Numbered from the stretch's first letter, positions 13,992 through 19,786 are shown. The stretch: 22,488 bases of DNA from a virus (IMGVR_UViG_3300044638_001106:1-22488), one strand, 5' to 3'. Program-made: numbers and translations. The notes: a model not told the origin generated them from the letters alone.

Positions 13992-14426
13992 TTATTCAAC
14001 GCGCAAGATTGCAGTAGCTGCCGCCGCTGCTGGGAAGATGATGTTGAAATCACCGCCAGACACGATTTGATCCGTACCAAAGCTCAACACAGCCACAGCT
14101 TTATTACCCTGTGTTGAGTTGTAAATCAATGCGCCACGAGTCGTAAACGTCACACCTGACCAAGTTACGGGCGACGTAAACGAAATAAACGCTGTAGTGC
14201 CACCGGAAGTTGGTGTTGTTGAAATAGCCAGTGCTAGGCCACCAGCAACGTAGTTTGTGCTAACAACTTCGTTTGTAGCACTATAAACTGTGGTTGTTGC
14301 ATCCAAAGTGGCAGAGTTGGTGTACAACGCTATTTTGAATGTGTTTGCTGATGTTGGGCCAAAGTTATGAACTGCTTGCAGAATCTCAACTTTAAAACTT
14401 GTGGGCATTGCTTGTGTAATAGCCAT
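13992..14426 (-). CDS. Virion-type protein, tandem paralogue B
   Basis: This 144-residue protein is a paralogue of its upstream neighbour. Shared features in the same order are a start ending in TSFKVEILQAVHNF, a KIALYTNSA stretch, VYSATNEV, YVAGG, a WSGVTFTTRGALIYN motif followed by GNKAVAVLSFG, and a C-terminal strand with TAILR. It is beta-rich, without a membrane segment or catalytic motif. I recall the ALIYNS--GN-AVAVL-FG motif in environmental phages next to the adaptor gene. A structural role, such as head decoration or tail ring, is inferred from the position. The ribosome site is TAAAGGAGTACTTTC-ATG, using the stop of the paralogue. Confidence 0.85.
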   Translation of the reverse strand: MAITQAMPTSFKVEILQAVHNFGPTSANTFKIALYTNSATLDATTTVYSATNEVVSTNYVAGGLALAISTTPTSGGTTAFISFTSPVTWSGVTFTTRGALIYNSTQGNKAVAVLSFGTDQIVSGGDFNIIFPAAAAATAILRVE

Positions 14427-14438
14427 GAAAGTACTCCT

Positions 14439-14861
14439 TTAATTGGCGGACCTGATAAGGGCCGTAGTCGGTCCATTAACAGGCATCTGGATGGTGAAGG
14501 TATTGTTGCAGGTTTTGTTTGAACCAAAATCTAACACAGCAATTGACTTGTTGCCCTTACTTGCGTTGTAGATTAGTGCGCATCGCGTGGTGAAGGCGGC
14601 AGGGTTCCATAGCACATTGTCAAAATTAACATATGCCACAAATCCTGATTGCTGTACCGTCACGCCCGTGAGAACTTTACCGCCTTGCACATAGCCGCTT
14701 GCCGTTGGCAACTCGTTTGTATTTGCATACACGGTAGTGCTTTGATTTAAATCTGCAAAACTATCATACAAAGCAATCTTGAGGGTGTCCGTAAGCAAGT
14801 TATGGACGCCCTGATAAAGCTCCGCTTTGAAGCTGGTGGTTTGTGCTTGTAGGATGCTCAT
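14439..14861 (-). CDS. Virion-type protein, tandem paralogue A
   Basis: This 140-residue protein shares with the next gene the signature TSFKAELYQGVHNL, KIALYDSFA, VYANTNELP, YVQGGKVL, FTTRCALIYNASKGNKSIAV and a C-terminal TALIRSA. Overall identity is moderate, so the duplication is not recent. Its ATG overlaps the stop of the adaptor gene (ATGA), which suggests translation coupled to the adaptor. Such proteins may sit on or near the adaptor or decorate the capsid; no function is established that I know of. No motif other than the family signature is visible. Confidence 0.85.
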   Translation of the reverse strand: MSILQAQTTSFKAELYQGVHNLLTDTLKIALYDSFADLNQSTTVYANTNELPTASGYVQGGKVLTGVTVQQSGFVAYVNFDNVLWNPAAFTTRCALIYNASKGNKSIAVLDFGSNKTCNNTFTIQMPVNGPTTALIRSAN

Positions 14862-15510: not shown

Positions 15511-15774
15511 TTAGGCCATTGGCCCTCTTGACATGACACCCTTAGTAGCACAGCCAGTGCCACGGATTTTGATGCCAGATGTTTTGACGGTGTTGTCGGG
15601 GCTATTGTTGTACGAACCAACGCTCATACGCATGGTGTTAGTGCTAGATACATCAGACGGTTTACCGGGATTGGTAGAAGCTCTTACAGCTTTACCCGTC
15701 ATTGTGTGCGGCTCGGCATAGACGCTGGCGTCGCCAACTTCTTTACCGCCTTTTTTCATGCTGTATTTGGCCAT
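15511..15774 (-). CDS. Small basic protein of unknown function
   Basis: This 87-residue protein opens MAKYSMKKGGKEVGDASVYA, then PHTMTGKAVRASTNPGKP, and ends with TVKTSGIKIRGTGCATKGVM plus SRGPMA. I recognise the family by sight (VYAEPH at the front, DNTVKTSGI--RGTGAATKG at the end) from environmental phages, but know no function. It is rich in Lys, Arg, Gly and Thr, and has no membrane segment. It lies between the 59-residue basic protein and the adaptor. The start follows a GTGGGGG ribosome site about 8 bases upstream. Like its neighbours it carries a KKGG motif near the N-terminus. Confidence 0.85.
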   Translation of the reverse strand: MAKYSMKKGGKEVGDASVYAEPHTMTGKAVRASTNPGKPSDVSSTNTMRMSVGSYNNSPDNTVKTSGIKIRGTGCATKGVMSRGPMA

Positions 15775-15776
15775 GA

Positions 15777-15956
15777 TTAACCCCCACGTTGGTTGTTTGC
15801 ACGGGCCATATTACGGCCAACGGCACGCATTGCTTTGCCAGTCACACCGCCCTTTTTAAGCTTGGTTGGTGCCTTGCCGGGGTGCATGTTTTTCTCATGT
15901 TTACCCACAGCAGATTTAATCATTTTCTTGTCTTGGGCTTTGTCCATCTTGTCCAT
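15777..15956 (-). CDS. 59-residue basic protein of unknown function
   Basis: The reading frame from ATG at 15956 to TAA at 15777-15779 gives 59 residues: it opens MDKMDKAQDKKMIKSAVGKH, continues EKNMHPGKAPTKLKKGGVTG and ends KAMRAVGRNMARANNQRGG. The ribosome site is TAAGGAGTCAAA-ATG, where TAA is the stop of the zinc-ribbon gene, so the start is well supported. Very similar small proteins (QDK-M---AV--HE, LKKGG-T, GRNMARA-NQ) are familiar from environmental phages. The first half is helical and the whole protein strongly basic, so contact with DNA or an acidic partner is plausible. The function is not known. Confidence 0.85.
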   Translation of the reverse strand: MDKMDKAQDKKMIKSAVGKHEKNMHPGKAPTKLKKGGVTGKAMRAVGRNMARANNQRGG

Positions 15957-15965
15957 TTTGACTCC

Positions 15966-16355
15966 TTATGTCGTTACTACCGTAACTGTACCAACATATG
16001 CCGTTGCAGCCAAGTAGTTTGGCGTTAAAACGGCATCAAATTGACTGGCCCCGCCTACTGGGTTCCAGCCCCACTGAATGTCCCTCGATCCACCTGCTGG
16101 CGTTCCGTCAGCATTTAAACCGCTGGTTACATAGGTTGTGTCAGGTCTTGGCCCCCGAACCGCCTGTGGGTCTTCTACTGGATACATACCCAATTGAAGC
16201 TGCGGGTGGTCGGGGTCCCAGCACTCTGGGCACACCTTGATCTGAAACAGTTTTGTCTTGACGACTTCGGTCTTCAGGCGTTTGAGCTTGAACTGCTGCC
16301 CACAACGGTCGCAAGAAGCAATGCTGTATTTGCCAGAAGAAAACCGATTGGACAT
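15966..16355 (-). CDS. Zinc-ribbon virion-module protein
   Basis: This 129-residue protein opens MSNRFSSGKYSIASCDRCGQ and has two CxxC pairs, C15/C18 and C42/C45, with a basic strand between them (FKLKRLKTEVVKTKLFQIK). The second half carries DPDHPQLQLGMYPVEDPQAV, RGPRPD, then IQWGWNPVGG and a beta-like tail. The N-terminal half should fold as a zinc ribbon. The family, recognisable by the CDRCG start and QLQLGMYPVDDPQA, is common in environmental phages between the two adaptor-like genes, with no function that I know of. TAATG overlap with the adaptor gene suggests coupled expression; a tail-joining accessory role is inferred. Confidence 0.87.
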   Translation of the reverse strand: MSNRFSSGKYSIASCDRCGQQFKLKRLKTEVVKTKLFQIKVCPECWDPDHPQLQLGMYPVEDPQAVRGPRPDTTYVTSGLNADGTPAGGSRDIQWGWNPVGGASQFDAVLTPNYLAATAYVGTVTVVTT

Positions 16356-17287
16356 TAGGTAGTACCCCCACCAATGTACATTTGACGGGGCACCAACCGC
16401 AGCGCGGCTTTCTCGTGGTCTTCACCAGCGGCCAAGTCAAACTGCTCCATATAGGCGGCTTTGAGCATATCCACACGCTGGGCCAACTCGGGCACCTTCA
16501 TGGCAATGTGGTACGCCAACCCTGCGGCTACGGCGGGTAAGAAGCGGAAATTCATGTCAGAGGTTTGAATACCAGTTCCCGCATCTTGGATACGGCGCAT
16601 ACGCCAGTAAACAAACTGATATGTCTGTGAGTTGTCGGGCGCTGGCCAGACTGTTACGGCTGGTAGCTGAGGTACGTAAACGGCGGTAGCGGTCAAATGC
16701 GAAACCGCAGTCGTGTTGTTCTGCCCACGGAAGCAACTACCCAACGTGTTTCCAGAAATGTAACCGTAGTAGATAACCTCGGAATCAACTTTTATGAACC
16801 CCCCAGCGGCCAGCCCCGCTGTTGTACTTAGAGTTATGGTGGTAGCTGTAGCAGTGAGTGCCCCATTTAGCGTTGCATCCGTGGGGTTTGTTTCACCTGA
16901 CAAGCGCTGAATCCACACTTGAATTGGACGGCCAGTCGTTAACTTGTTGGGGATAGTAGCGTAGGTAGAAACACTAATACGCGTGATGCTAAGGTCAGCC
17001 TGTGTACTTGATTGATTCCCGCCTGTGCGGATCACATGATCCAACAGGTCAATGGTATCCACCGGAAGAGCGTATGTGGGCAAACTCGGGGTCAAAGTGA
17101 AGGAGCCTTCCTCAATTGTCCACATATTCAAGCCACGGTTGGCCCACTCAATGGTCATCAGGTTCATGGAACGACGGGCTGTGCGCAGGTCGTAGCCTGT
17201 TCGCATCTCACGGCCAGCACGCTCCCACGCTTCTTCAGCGAGTTCTGTGAACTCCATATTGAATGCTGAGGTGCCGGAGGTTGTCAT
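16355..17287 (-). CDS. P22 gp4-like head-tail adaptor with inserted beta module
   Basis: This 310-residue protein shows the pattern of P22 gp4-like tail accessory factors: FTELAEEAWERAGREMRTGYD (in two stretches), then LRTARRSMNLMTIEWANRGL, NMWTIEEGSFTL and YALPVDTIDLLDHVIRT. Later come WPAPDNSQTYQFVYWRMRR and FRFLPAVAAGLAYHIAMKVPE with a helical end. Residues about 143-210 (TLNGALTATATTITL to VSHLTATAVYV) interrupt this fold with a beta module of a kind often inserted in phage structural proteins. P22 gp4 has 166 residues, so part of the extra length is this insert. Such adaptors form a ring below the portal and bind the nozzle. The start overlaps the upstream stop as TAATG. Confidence 0.85.
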   Translation of the reverse strand: MTTSGTSAFNMEFTELAEEAWERAGREMRTGYDLRTARRSMNLMTIEWANRGLNMWTIEEGSFTLTPSLPTYALPVDTIDLLDHVIRTGGNQSSTQADLSITRISVSTYATIPNKLTTGRPIQVWIQRLSGETNPTDATLNGALTATATTITLSTTAGLAAGGFIKVDSEVIYYGYISGNTLGSCFRGQNNTTAVSHLTATAVYVPQLPAVTVWPAPDNSQTYQFVYWRMRRIQDAGTGIQTSDMNFRFLPAVAAGLAYHIAMKVPELAQRVDMLKAAYMEQFDLAAGEDHEKAALRLVPRQMYIGGGTT

Positions 17288-17520
17288 TATCTAAATCCCG
17301 CTGTTTTTTTCGCAATTGTTTTTGGTTGCGCTACGAATTGTTTTCCGGCTTTTTTGCCAGCACGCTTCGCACGCGTTGTTGCAGCATACTCACTAGCGCT
17401 GAGATTTTTAATCGCAGCGCTTGGTAGGTATCTTTCACCTGTGTCAGAAGATTTTTTACCACTTTTAGTTCTCCATTTTTGATCACCCCAATCTTTGAGC
17501 GATTTCTGTGGGGCTTTCAT
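17287..17520 (-). CDS. Small basic protein, WRTKSGK family
   Basis: I chose the ATG at 17520, one base after the upstream TAG, giving 77 residues; an in-frame GTG at 17541 would add seven residues but has no better ribosome site. The protein opens MKAPQKSLKDWGDQKWRTKS, continues GERYLPSAAIKNLSASEYAA and TTRAKRAGKKAGKQFVAQP, and ends KTIAKKTAGFR. It is strongly basic. The signature SL--W--Q-WRTKSGK, GERYLP--A and AATTRAKR-GK-AGKQFV-QP is familiar from cyanophages, other environmental phages and some giant viruses, without a known function. The start of the adaptor gene overlaps its stop (TAATG). Confidence 0.82.
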   Translation of the reverse strand: MKAPQKSLKDWGDQKWRTKSGKKSSDTGERYLPSAAIKNLSASEYAATTRAKRAGKKAGKQFVAQPKTIAKKTAGFR

Positions 17521-17521
17521 A

Positions 17522-17797
17522 CTAGTCTCTGTACCTGCCACCTGCGGCTTTGTATTTCTTGGCCACCAACTGCGCTTTACGTGCTGACCACTGCCCTGCG
17601 CCGGTCCCTTGCGTTGCCGCAGATTTAACTTGGCTCACAATCTTCTTGCGAAGGCTAGGTTTGGTGTAGTTACCCGCAGCATTAACCTTACCGCCTTCAG
17701 CGTACTGCGTGAAGTCAGTATTATCCCGACGGGCTTTTTTAGTTCCCTTTGGCATTTTGGAGGGGCTAATGTCGCCCATACCACGGCTTGCCATCAT
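17522..17797 (-). CDS. Small basic protein with AEGGKVNAAGNYTKP motif
   Basis: This 91-residue protein opens MMASRGMGDISPSKMPKGTK, then KARRDNTDFTQYAEGGKVNA and AGNYTKPSLRKKIVSQVKS. It ends with GAGQWSARKAQLVAKKYKAA and GGRYRD. The N-terminus overlaps the stop of the preceding gene (ATGA at 17797-17794); the second Met at 17794 is an equally possible start. The signature GNYTKP--RK, then GQWSARKAQ--AK-YK--GG-Y, is recognisable from many environmental and marine phages. It is basic (high Lys and Arg) with a helical C-terminal half. No function is established that I know of; a DNA- or capsid-interior-binding role is a guess from charge alone. Confidence 0.87.
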   Translation of the reverse strand: MMASRGMGDISPSKMPKGTKKARRDNTDFTQYAEGGKVNAAGNYTKPSLRKKIVSQVKSAATQGTGAGQWSARKAQLVAKKYKAAGGRYRD

Positions 17798-18045
17798 ATG
17801 AACTTACCTTTAGTTTTACCCTTAGCGCAGCAGCCATCAGCACGGCTTGATGCGCTACCACCATTCTTCATGCGAGTAGGCATCGGGCGTGGCATTGGGC
17901 GTGGCATTGGGCGGGGTTGTGGGGCCAAGCCAGCAGCCATTGCTGCTTCTTGCATAGTCAGACCAGCAGGGGGCTTAACACGGGGGCGTCCACGCCCACT
18001 CACGCTCATTCCTTGTTTATCGTCGCTTTTTGAAGGCATCTTCAT
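17794..18045 (-). CDS. Small basic protein with RPMP repeats and shared C-terminal tag
   Basis: ATG at 18045 is preceded by TAAGGAACCAATC, so I start here rather than at an in-frame upstream codon that would overlap the neighbouring gene by more than 100 bases. The 83-residue protein opens MKMPSKSDDKQGMSVSGRGR, has LTMQEAAMAAGLAPQP, then RPMPRPMPRPMP, and ends NGGSASSRADGCCAKGKTKG plus KFI. The last 23 residues are a version of the tag shared with three neighbouring genes; here the usual IA pair is replaced by two cysteines. The RGRPR stretch resembles an AT-hook core, which would suggest DNA minor-groove binding, but it is short. The function is unknown. Confidence 0.82.
   Translation of the reverse strand: MKMPSKSDDKQGMSVSGRGRPRVKPPAGLTMQEAAMAAGLAPQPRPMPRPMPRPMPTRMKNGGSASSRADGCCAKGKTKGKFI
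17885..17914 (-). repeat. Short 12-bp coding tandem repeat
   Basis: Two and a half copies of a 12-bp unit (GGGCGTGGCATT as read on the plus strand) lie inside the 83-residue gene. They code the PRPM repeats. The unit is a multiple of three and its copies are identical, which suggests recent slippage expansion. Confidence 0.85.
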
Positions 18046-18055
18046 GATTGGTTCC

Positions 18056-18322
18056 TTAGCAAATTTTGCCTCGGGTCTTACCTTTTTGGGCAATTCCGTC
18101 GGCACGTTTAGACACAGAACCACCATTTTTATAGTTGGTGGGTGTAGTGCGGGCTGCTTCGTAGGCTTTTTCAATCTTAGGCTGCATTGCTGCATCCTTG
18201 GCCTCTTGGATCATGGCCGCTTGACGAGCGCGGGCTTCAGGGGTCACAACATCATCCGCTGTCATTTCGGGACGGCGAGATTTGTAGTTGCGCATACCTT
18301 TCTCTGTAGTGCTTGTGGCCAT
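18056..18322 (-). CDS. Small protein with shared C-terminal tag
   Basis: This 88-residue protein opens MATSTTEKGMRNYKSRRPEM, followed by an alanine-rich helical middle (ARARQAAMIQEAKDAAMQPK, IEKAYEAAR), and ends with YKNGGSVSKRADGIAQKGKT plus RGKIC. The final 23 residues are the tag shared with three neighbours, ending in a C-terminal cysteine. The N-terminal part has no visible relation to those neighbours. The ribosome site is TAAGGAACAATC-ATG, using the stop of the 121-residue gene. No known function; it does not contain membrane segments or catalytic motifs. Confidence 0.85.
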   Translation of the reverse strand: MATSTTEKGMRNYKSRRPEMTADDVVTPEARARQAAMIQEAKDAAMQPKIEKAYEAARTTPTNYKNGGSVSKRADGIAQKGKTRGKIC

Positions 18323-18331
18323 GATTGTTCC

Positions 18332-18697
18332 TTAGCAGGTTTTGCCGCCTTTAGCGAGCATTTTGCCCTTGGTCTTGCCTTTAGCAGCAATGCCATCAGC
18401 ACGAGCAGAAGCTGAACCACCTTTAGCGTAGGCCATACCTCCCATGTTCATCTTTTTGGCCGTGCTGCCTTTGTTCATAAAAATAGGCACTTTCTTGCCG
18501 TCTTTCATTTTCATGGGCATGCCGCCTTTTTTCATTGCTTCAGATTTCATATCATCACCTTTTAAAAATTTGCGGCTTTTGTCCGCTTGGTTGAATTCTT
18601 TGCCCACAGACTGTGGGACGCCTGCCTTCTTAGCAAACGCTGGATTGTGGGCCACCGCTGCCATGAATTTTGCCTGTTTATTGCTAGTTGAGGGCAC
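18332..18697 (-). CDS. Small basic protein (PSTSNKQAKFM family) with shared C-terminal tag
   Basis: This 121-residue protein starts at GTG 18697, overlapping the upstream gene by 14 bases; a ribosome site GAAGGAACATCGCA-GTG supports this. It opens with PSTSNKQAKFMAAVAHNPAF, then AKKAGVPQSVGKEFNQAD, a family I recognise by sight from cyanophages and other marine and freshwater phages (S--Q--FM-A-AH-P-FAKK-GVPQSVGK-F). The middle is rich in Met, Lys and Gly (MKKGGMPMKMKDGKKVPIF). It ends AKGGSASARADGIAAKGKTK plus a second KGG and a C-terminal cysteine (LAKGGKTC). The function is unknown. It is a Lys-rich small protein and may interact with DNA or the capsid interior. Confidence 0.85.
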   Translation of the reverse strand: MPSTSNKQAKFMAAVAHNPAFAKKAGVPQSVGKEFNQADKSRKFLKGDDMKSEAMKKGGMPMKMKDGKKVPIFMNKGSTAKKMNMGGMAYAKGGSASARADGIAAKGKTKGKMLAKGGKTC

Positions 18698-18932
18698 TGC
18701 GATGTTCCTTCATGAAATCATCAATTTTGCCCTCAAGCCTATCTAACCTTGCCAATACGCGATTTATATCGTTGTGCACATCCACTTTGGTCACGTATTT
18801 CTCGGCGTTCTCTTCCCTTGTTTTACTCAGGAGAATACTAAGGCGTTTCACTTCGTCGTGAGACACCTTCACCCAGAACATCAGCGCTGCTGATGCAAAC
18901 GACAAAAACACATTCCAGATCATCAAGTCCAT
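18684..18932 (-). CDS. Small membrane-anchored coiled-coil protein
   Basis: I start at ATG 18932, one base after the stop of the preceding gene, with GGAAAG 10 bases upstream; an in-frame GTG at 18950 would add six residues but overlaps that gene. The 82-residue protein has one membrane segment at residues 4-21 (MIWNVFLSFASAALMFWV) and a charged coiled-coil helix at 25-78 (VKRLSILLSKTREENAEKYV, INRVLARLDRLEGKIDDFMK). Such small membrane-plus-coiled-coil proteins are common in phages; some act in lysis, others have no known role. Among otherwise soluble basic proteins it stands out. A lysis-regulating or membrane-tethering role is inferred from topology only. Confidence 0.82.
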   Translation of the reverse strand: MDLMIWNVFLSFASAALMFWVKVSHDEVKRLSILLSKTREENAEKYVTKVDVHNDINRVLARLDRLEGKIDDFMKEHRSALN

Positions 18933-18933
18933 A

Positions 18934-19515
18934 TCAACGCATCTTTCCACGAGTTTTGCCGCGTTGGGCTATCCCATCGCCACGACTTGATGCTTTAGAG
19001 GCAACGCTTCCGCCGCGTTTGTAGTTACCAGCGGATTGCCGTGTGTCGTCATCAATTTCCGGGTTGCGGCCAGCGTACATTTTGCCCTCGATGGACATGT
19101 TTTTGCTAGCAGCGGACTTCTTTTTTGACGGAATAACTTCTTCCGTATCCAGATCGCCCCTAGCAATACGTTTTTTAGCACCTTCAGACAGTTCTACTTT
19201 GTCGCGGCTGTTAGCAACGCGCTCGGCTAAATCACCTAGCCCAGATTCATCCACAATCTTTTTGCCTACACCGGTCTTTTCGTCGATTGCTCGGCCTATG
19301 CCGTACCCAGCTTCCAACGCACCTTCCGCTAGTGCACCACGACCAATGTTTCTAGCTAGGCCACGGCCCCCAGCTTCTATTACTGCTCGACGGGCCCCAC
19401 CCTTTAAATCGGATGAATTTATGTTTGCAGCTTTTTTAATCTTGTCCATGTCTTCAAAACTACGTTTTGCGACATCATCTTTAAAACCGGGTACTTTGTC
19501 CCATCTAGTTGCCAT
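18934..19515 (-). CDS. Basic 193-residue protein with shared C-terminal tag
   Basis: This protein opens MATRWDKVPGFKDDVAKRSF, continues with a glycine- and alanine-rich helical stretch at about residues 40-95 (RRAVIEAGGRGLARNIGRGA, then GYGIGRAIDEKTGVGKKIV) and a charged middle (AKKRIARGDLDTEEVIPSKK). It ends KRGGSVASKASSRGDGIAQR plus GKTRGKMR, a longer version of the tag shared with three neighbours. The glycine-rich stretch resembles membrane-active or capsid-interior peptides in composition, but no membrane segment is clear. The start follows TAAGGAGTAAATC-ATG with the stop of the previous gene inside the ribosome site. I do not recognise the N-terminal part. Confidence 0.82.
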   Translation of the reverse strand: MATRWDKVPGFKDDVAKRSFEDMDKIKKAANINSSDLKGGARRAVIEAGGRGLARNIGRGALAEGALEAGYGIGRAIDEKTGVGKKIVDESGLGDLAERVANSRDKVELSEGAKKRIARGDLDTEEVIPSKKKSAASKNMSIEGKMYAGRNPEIDDDTRQSAGNYKRGGSVASKASSRGDGIAQRGKTRGKMR

Positions 19516-19525
19516 GATTTACTCC

Positions 19526-19786
19526 TTAACATTTCCATGCCCGAAGGCTCTTGTTGATACGGCTATTCGGGTCTTTGGCTGTCTTGGGGCTGGTCAGCTT
19601 TTTCTTCATGCCCTCCATACGGGCGCAGAAAGAGTCGCGCCTGCTGCCGCCCTCGGGTTGAGGGGCCTTCAAGCCGGGTTTGCCCGGGTTGGCTTTGTTG
19701 TAGGACGCACGGCCCTTCGCGTTCAAGCCGCCCTTGTCTGACTTGCCTTCTTTGCGTGTCCATGCTGCTGTCTTCTTTGTAGCCAT
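19526..19786 (-). CDS. Small basic protein, KGGLNAKGRASYN family
   Basis: This 86-residue protein opens MATKKTAAWTRKEGKSDKGG, then LNAKGRASYNKANPGKPGLK, PQPEGGSRRDSFCARMEGMK and ends DPNSRINKSLRAWKC. I recognise this family by sight (KGGLNAKGR-SYN, LKAPQPEGG-R--SFC-RM-GMK, DPNSRIN-ALR-W-C); it is widespread in marine and freshwater phages and some other viruses, and listed as a domain of unknown function as far as I remember. It is strongly basic with a C-terminal cysteine. It overlaps the stop of the 850-residue gene as TAATG. The conserved, charged pattern suggests binding to nucleic acid or an acidic virion surface; this is inference. Confidence 0.9.
   Translation of the reverse strand: MATKKTAAWTRKEGKSDKGGLNAKGRASYNKANPGKPGLKAPQPEGGSRRDSFCARMEGMKKKLTSPKTAKDPNSRINKSLRAWKC

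Follow-up and report, generated by a model that had tools for sequence, protein, structure and literature searches.

The linear viral record IMGVR_UViG_3300044638_001106, referred to below over its whole length of 22,488 bases as the window, carries on its minus strand four neighbouring genes whose small protein products end in a common peptide tag. Tagged protein 1 (18934..19515, 193 amino acids) is basic and has a Gly/Ala-rich, helix-like stretch in mid-protein; it forms a family of four with proteins from L099, L101 and L006, and its tag GGSVASKASSRGDGIAQRGKTRGKMR is encoded at 18937..19014 (coordinates of the four tags give the DNA from GG to the last codon). Tagged protein 2 (18332..18697, 121 amino acids) joins an N-terminal SNKQ domain (phrog_16759) to a class II (long) tag with a terminal Cys, GGSASARADGIAAKGKTKGKMLAKGGKTC (18335..18421). 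Tagged proteins 3 (18056..18322, 88 amino acids) and 4 (17794..18045, 83 amino acids) end in GGSVSKRADGIAQKGKTRGKIC (18059..18124) and GGSASSRADGCCAKGKTKGKFI (17797..17862), respectively. The common C-terminal peptide can be written GG-x(4-8)-R(A/G)DG(I/C)A-x-(K/R)GKT(K/R)GK-hydrophobic-(V/C). An earlier note on this DNA had placed the same four open reading frames (ORFs), each ending in the tag, correctly; the consensus that it gave holds overall but not in detail, as tag 1 reads RGDGIA and tag 4 RADGCC, and the ORF at 18332-18697 starts with GTG. Its count of four was also incomplete: a fifth, related C-terminal tag, RGTGCATKGVMSRGPMA (15514-15564), ends a small protein encoded on the same strand at 15511..15774, in the slot between neck and tail genes.

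The note had further held that the N-terminal parts are unrelated and that the peptide is kept by selection, and both claims are borne out. Pairwise BLAST detects no N-terminal similarity among the four window proteins. Across the 16-codon core of the tag, the six window pairs differ on average by 0.83 at synonymous and by 0.26 at non-synonymous sites; synonymous sites are near saturation and the peptide is kept, and selection therefore acts on the peptide rather than on the DNA. A conserved DNA or RNA element was rejected because of this saturation.

How widely is this peptide distributed? Viral contigs were scanned with a degenerate DNA pattern that fixes part of the core and requires no stop codon, which gave at least 120 matches; counts of tagged ORFs, clusters, classes and loci given here are among the matches listed. 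Residues fixed by the pattern (R, D, G, G, K, T and others) are unusable as evidence of conservation, and the features that lie outside it are the GG hinge, SAS, the final residues, the cysteines and the C-terminal position. The tag is consistently C-terminal: just two of 229 regular-expression hits in the loci are internal (a count that includes four duplicate loci of the window). With window duplicates removed and a slightly wider expression, at least 225 tagged ORFs are found on viral contigs. Class I tags (163/225) end exactly three residues past the core, as (K/R)-(M/F/I)-(V/C/I/L), a fixed distance to the stop that argues against the random Lys/Gly bias which the note had named as a possible refutation. 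Class II tags (51/225) have a longer tail, of 9-15 residues, usually terminated by Cys, and 10/225 tags stop at GKTRA. The last two residues are nearly always hydrophobic or Cys, GG sits 4-8 residues ahead of the core in most tags, and the consensus reads GGxVSSASKRADGCAxKGKTRGxMV. A single protein at L005 (contig IMGVR_UViG_3300047512_000007) ends in two consecutive tags (..RADGMAHKGKTKGKMV..KGADGIASKGKTRGKIV..).

The same degenerate pattern finds four stretches in bacterial and archaeal genomes (257 Gb, about 85,000 genomes), against at least 120 matches in viral contigs, which excludes a chance origin. Among these stretches, L162 is clearly a cluster of phage structural genes, and in all four the tags are again C-terminal, bar one extended copy. 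The few matches in metagenome-assembled genomes were rejected as evidence for hosts, since they resemble phage contigs placed in bacterial bins. Almost none of the tagged proteins is annotated: of 86 tagged representatives, at most 2 match any one PHROG family. A published description of the tag was not found in the open-access literature, so that the absence of one is unproven.

The proteins that carry the tag are highly diverse. Single-linkage clustering by BLAST sorts their 209 N-terminal parts into 84 clusters, none of 127 same-contig tagged pairs has related N-termini (E<1e-3), and these figures tell against the single full-length family, diverged at the N-terminus, that the note had considered as an alternative. 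Within families, mean identity is 35% for N-termini versus 76% for the tag core. The N-termini of L047, L049, L105 and L043, pairs of which are 80-93% identical, carry different tags (RADGCC..KMV, RADGIA..TIC, RADGIA..KMV and a long tag). In some proteins class II tags follow a module of the form KHE..MH..TKL.KGG; in others the module is followed by an entirely different end, ..GRGMAKVANQRGK, and the family with the latter arrangement includes a small basic protein of the window (15777..15956, minus strand), which shares the module with class II tagged proteins and differs from them at its C-terminal end.

Cysteines are enriched in the tags and follow a rule there. The N-terminal parts contain 5 in 22,342 residues, compared with 0.73% in the larger proteins of six relatives, and Cys is present in 131/163 class I tags (exactly one in 102) and in 49/51 class II tags. 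Within class I it lies at motif position 5 without a terminal Cys in 77 tags, at the terminus without a position-5 Cys in 44 and at both in 2, and the two positions are mutually exclusive (Fisher p=1e-13). The exclusion persists when each N-terminal cluster is represented by a single tag (median p=7e-5), when each locus is (4e-11) and within haplotypes identical at other positions, and eleven loci, the window included, hold both kinds of Cys. The two positions may reach the same contact, for example through a hairpin around GKT.

N-terminal parts have a median isoelectric point of 9.5 and 18% order-promoting residues, and are disorder-prone. A membrane-like hydrophobic stretch (Kyte-Doolittle value, KD, >1.3) occurs in just 4%, and membrane anchoring by these parts was rejected for this reason. 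For the SNKQ family (49 sequences), AlphaFold2 (AF2) models residues 1-40 with confidence as a three-helix domain and gives the tag a pLDDT (predicted local distance difference test) of about 50 or less; the domain is thus predicted to be folded and the tag disordered. Over 43 residues the SNKQ domain shares 65% identity with phiKZ PHIKZ165.1, and it opens jumbo-phage proteins annotated as virion structural. SNKQ proteins (phrog_16759, phrog_22033 and phrog_25121) resemble tagged protein 2 in this domain, but a few from the present phage group, and a short one of jumbo phage SXP01, end after it, so that the tag is an addition.

Gene order around the tagged block was compared using marker genes from complete relatives and was judged as far as contigs reach. 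In 125/125 loci the order and strand are the same and the tagged block lies between capsid and adaptor/tail genes: TerL, portal, GroES, scaffold, coat, cement, DUF6321, tagged genes, two small basic genes, adaptor, CxxC protein, RGTG-tag protein and tail. Capsid markers are always upstream of the block; adaptor and tail markers lie on its downstream side in 99-100% of cases. Complete intervals hold a mean of 1.75 tags and a maximum of 6. Pfam matches are to Phage_capsid_4 and Mu gpT for the group's coat and to SU10_adaptor for its adaptor. No tag is found on the conserved neighbours (DUF6321, the coiled-coil membrane protein, the two small basic proteins, adaptor and coat).

Several of these neighbours lie on the minus strand of the window. 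The upstream border of the block is a small basic DUF6321 protein ending in WKC (19526..19786; PF19846, E=7.7e-19); such proteins carry the tag in 0/85 loci, and show a terminal Cys (..WKC) in 69/81 loci together with a second invariant Cys, resembling their tagged neighbours in this respect. Between tagged genes lies a membrane/coiled-coil protein of the TMcc family (18684..18950), which is untagged in the window, as in all of 36-39 loci, and is probably outside the tag system; a similar protein adjoins a lysozyme gene in phage CRP-901. Downstream come two untagged, conserved small basic proteins, one that borders the block and ends ..KYKAAGGRYRD (17522..17797; phrog_17747; 118/125 loci) and one ending ..KTAGFR (17287..17541; phrog_14910; 91/125 loci). 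They are followed by the neck adaptor homologue (16355..17287), which matches the DSL-LC04 adaptor at 9e-55, the DSL-LC04 relative itself matching Pfam SU10_adaptor. An insertion in the adaptor was considered as the partner of the tag and rejected: the tag-bearing relative L162 has the short adaptor, so that there is no correlation. Directly after the adaptor is a protein of the hyp50 family with two CxxC pairs (15966..16355); both pairs are kept in 102/102 aligned relatives, giving a zinc-ribbon-like protein beside the neck genes. Further along, the adjacent tail proteins at 13992-14426 (MAITQAMPTSFK..) and 14439-14861 (MSILQAQTTSFK..) resemble tandem paralogues. A 735-amino-acid probable ejection protein (297-2504) has PPSYDFYTPP repeats and a C-terminal unit, GPGDGVSDSIPA..DGEFVVPA, related to one that ends a DSL-LC04 protein annotated as tape-measure; its extreme end, RGKTVGKGKVAHNSRADKYLPK, faintly recalls the tag.

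The fifth tag of the window belongs to a sister class. Homologues of the protein that bears it are present in 74/125 loci and lie downstream of the tagged block in every case. From RGTGCATKGVMSRGPMA and from RGGGAAVRGMGFKGVF of gp51 of Pelagibacter phage HTVC023P a second pattern was built, RGxGxAx(K/R)GK... ending at the stop (RGxGxAxRGKKFxGVF-stop). It finds at least 120 loci, and 116 of the 120 listed carry homologues of the same phage supergroup. Among listed loci with markers on both sides, the slots are portal|GroES (44), neck|tail (11) and capsid|adaptor (6), the latter two being those where the window lineage holds its own tags; one exceptional locus has the sister tag between TerL and portal. 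The two classes meet on contig L242, where an SNKQ protein has a hybrid tag, RGDGCAQRGNTKGKMC, and another gene has the sister tag. At L219:2463-2618 and L220:7508-7663, the final residues of the sister tag, KRKKFSGIY, follow immediately on the SNKQ domain with no GG hinge between them, which hints that the extreme C-terminus may be the key part of the tag. The confinement of the tag, in this sample, to head/neck gene slots of one short-tailed, mostly uncultured phage supergroup, the sister class in the same slots and the single-cysteine rule are all additions to what the earlier note had described.

Cultured relatives were reached via the adaptor and coat proteins; a tblastn search of cultured phages with the tag itself found nothing, although the query filter possibly masks such peptides. 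In Planktothrix phage Pag-Yong1 a single protein is tagged, UMO75986.1; it ends in GGMIGRDGCAKRGRTKGRFI (profile E=1.6e-4), and its gene has that of the minor capsid protein on one side and that of the portal-adaptor on the other. The sister tags of HTVC023P are on gp32 (in the portal|GroES slot) and on gp51 (ahead of the adaptor). Four phages with homologous coats (HTVC027P, CRP-901, Caulobacter phage RW and Alcaligenes phage QDWS535) have no tag in the regions read, and because of this, to judge from these genomes, tagged proteins look like accessory cargo that is dispensable for building such a virion, and not core structure. The records OL906435, OQ594354 and PP438419 (L129), with stated hosts Planktothrix, Synechococcus and Planktothricoides, have an equal length of 65,014 and an identical 308-amino-acid protein; they look like one phage, and the stated hosts call for caution.

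What might such a tag be for? A selected peptide lies at the exact C-terminus, behind a GG hinge, of unrelated, disorder-prone proteins encoded in head/neck slots of one supergroup, and for these reasons we tentatively favour, at somewhat short of even odds, a C-terminal docking or cargo-loading peptide that recruits small basic accessory proteins to a common head/neck component. The flexible GG hinge would join the tag to small, basic, mostly disorder-prone proteins, and the 16-residue core, ending in a hydrophobic pair and a free carboxylate, would bind one common assembling component, for which the coat lumen, the scaffold, the portal and the adaptor are candidates. The single Cys, at motif position 5 or as the last residue, would probably provide a contact or disulfide with this partner. 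Docking would in this manner carry fast-changing proteins into the virion, where they might condense or neutralise DNA or be ejected alongside it. The earlier note had proposed docking in the capsid interior or a packaging signal; the head-to-neck gene position in 125/125 loci fits this idea, in which the partner and the location in the virion are postulated.

Several points weigh against docking. We infer the presence of tagged proteins in virions from gene position and the SNKQ annotation, and the binding partner is itself a postulated component. A sequence search of the Protein Data Bank (PDB) gave no relative of the tag, and none of the portal; with the adaptor, RGTG protein and coat it gave weak matches to unrelated proteins only. 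The mean tag charge of +6 also fits non-specific nucleic-acid binding. Tags are more alike within genomes than between them (0.79 versus 0.72), but their fourfold sites match at 0.48 where codon usage predicts 0.31; the within-genome likeness is on that account partly due to common descent of the DNA rather than to coevolution with a partner. Concerted evolution was therefore set aside as proof of a common partner.

The charge of the tag, the median isoelectric point of 9.5 and the small, basic nature of untagged neighbours too (DUF6321, DUF5872-like) would suit a Gly/Lys/Arg-rich tail that binds packaged DNA or mRNA, the proteins then being small DNA-condensing factors without a specific protein partner. 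We consider this unlikely, as binding by charge leaves the exact C-terminal distance, the hydrophobic last pair and the single-Cys rule unexpected, along with the conserved acidic D in RADG (a residue partly imposed by the search). Gene position can be read in another way, with the tagged proteins as minor parts of the portal/adaptor neck, the tag fitting into a groove repeated around the 12-fold portal or adaptor ring while the variable regions decorate the neck or seal its channel. The slots do adjoin portal, adaptor and neck|tail genes, and an adaptor homologue is present in 116/125 loci; several unrelated proteins would, however, compete for one ring, their variable parts are disorder-prone, and relatives exist with adaptor and portal and no tags, which makes a neck role quite unlikely.

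The excess of matching fourfold sites, and the different tags on near-identical N-termini, would also be expected if the tag were mainly a mobile sequence module, spread by recombination or duplication and kept because tolerated, with a function that is slight or unspecific, for example in keeping the protein soluble or shielding its C-terminus. That account is improbable in view of a peptide conserved despite near-saturated synonymous sites, of the fixed gene slots, and of two sister classes that hold the same C-terminal position and slots in a divergent supergroup (some of their shared residues being imposed by the second pattern). A signal for processing, degradation or membrane sorting (sortase-like, PEP-CTERM-like or a protease degron), the first of which the note had also entertained, is the kind of element that is found at the C-terminus of unrelated proteins, and one of 86 members weakly matches an LPXTG anchor model (E=7e-4). 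The tags, however, have no LPXTG, PEP or hydrophobic membrane helix, membrane-like stretches are as rare in the N-terminal parts as reported above, conservation extends to the last residue and the conserved gene order contains no obvious partner enzyme; such a signal is very improbable.

Docking would have consequences beyond this locus. A bolder form of it, which we regard as doubtful, is that an interchangeable C-terminal label, equipped with one reactive thiol, fastens whichever protein bears it in the head or neck, and that an abundant aquatic phage supergroup loads and delivers rapidly changing accessory proteins to its hosts by this means. If so, the label would list the virion cargo of uncultured phages straight from sequence. 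With a tag marking a functional class whether or not its members are homologous, one could predict which unannotated proteins act together, a prediction testable in cultured phages. If the tag loads cargo, it would provide a real virus capsid with a packaging peptide that is both natural and portable.

Several known systems invite comparison. The capsid targeting sequence of phage T4 is a short shared N-terminal peptide that brings differing internal proteins into the prohead and is removed by the prohead protease. The present tag is likewise a short peptide common to otherwise different proteins, but it is C-terminal (in all but 2 of 229 hits) and conserved to its last residue. The scaffolding protein of phage P22 has a basic C-terminal helix-turn-helix that binds the coat interior and can carry fused cargo. 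A basic C-terminal element is thus common to both, although that of P22 is folded and belongs to one protein, whereas the tag consists of 16-30 predicted-disordered residues on many (the two were compared by description only). Sortase LPXTG, type IX CTD and PEP-CTERM sorting signals are C-terminal and common to many unrelated proteins. In this they are like the tag, which lacks an LPXTG, a PEP motif and a membrane helix and is borne by phage late proteins.

The targeting peptides of encapsulins lie at the cargo C-terminus behind a Gly-rich flexible linker and make hydrophobic and basic contacts, with motifs of the GSLxIGSLK or TVGSLxx type (PMC10960027). The tag resembles them in several respects: both are short C-terminal peptides of basic and hydrophobic character after a Gly-rich hinge (GG lies 4-8 residues before the core of the phage tag, which is disordered in the AF2 model), and in both cases the cargo genes adjoin that of an HK97-fold shell. 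The motif itself, GGxVSSASKRADGCAxKGKTRGxMV, is unlike either encapsulin type. The encapsulin shell is, moreover, a stand-alone compartment, whereas these are true phages with TerL, portal, GroES, scaffold, coat, adaptor and tail; and the phage cargo would comprise many unrelated, small, disorder-prone basic proteins and not enzymes, with a cysteine rule and with a binding that is postulated. By analogy, the best explanation of the tag may be that it acts as encapsulin targeting peptides do, in phages that are not themselves an encapsulin system.

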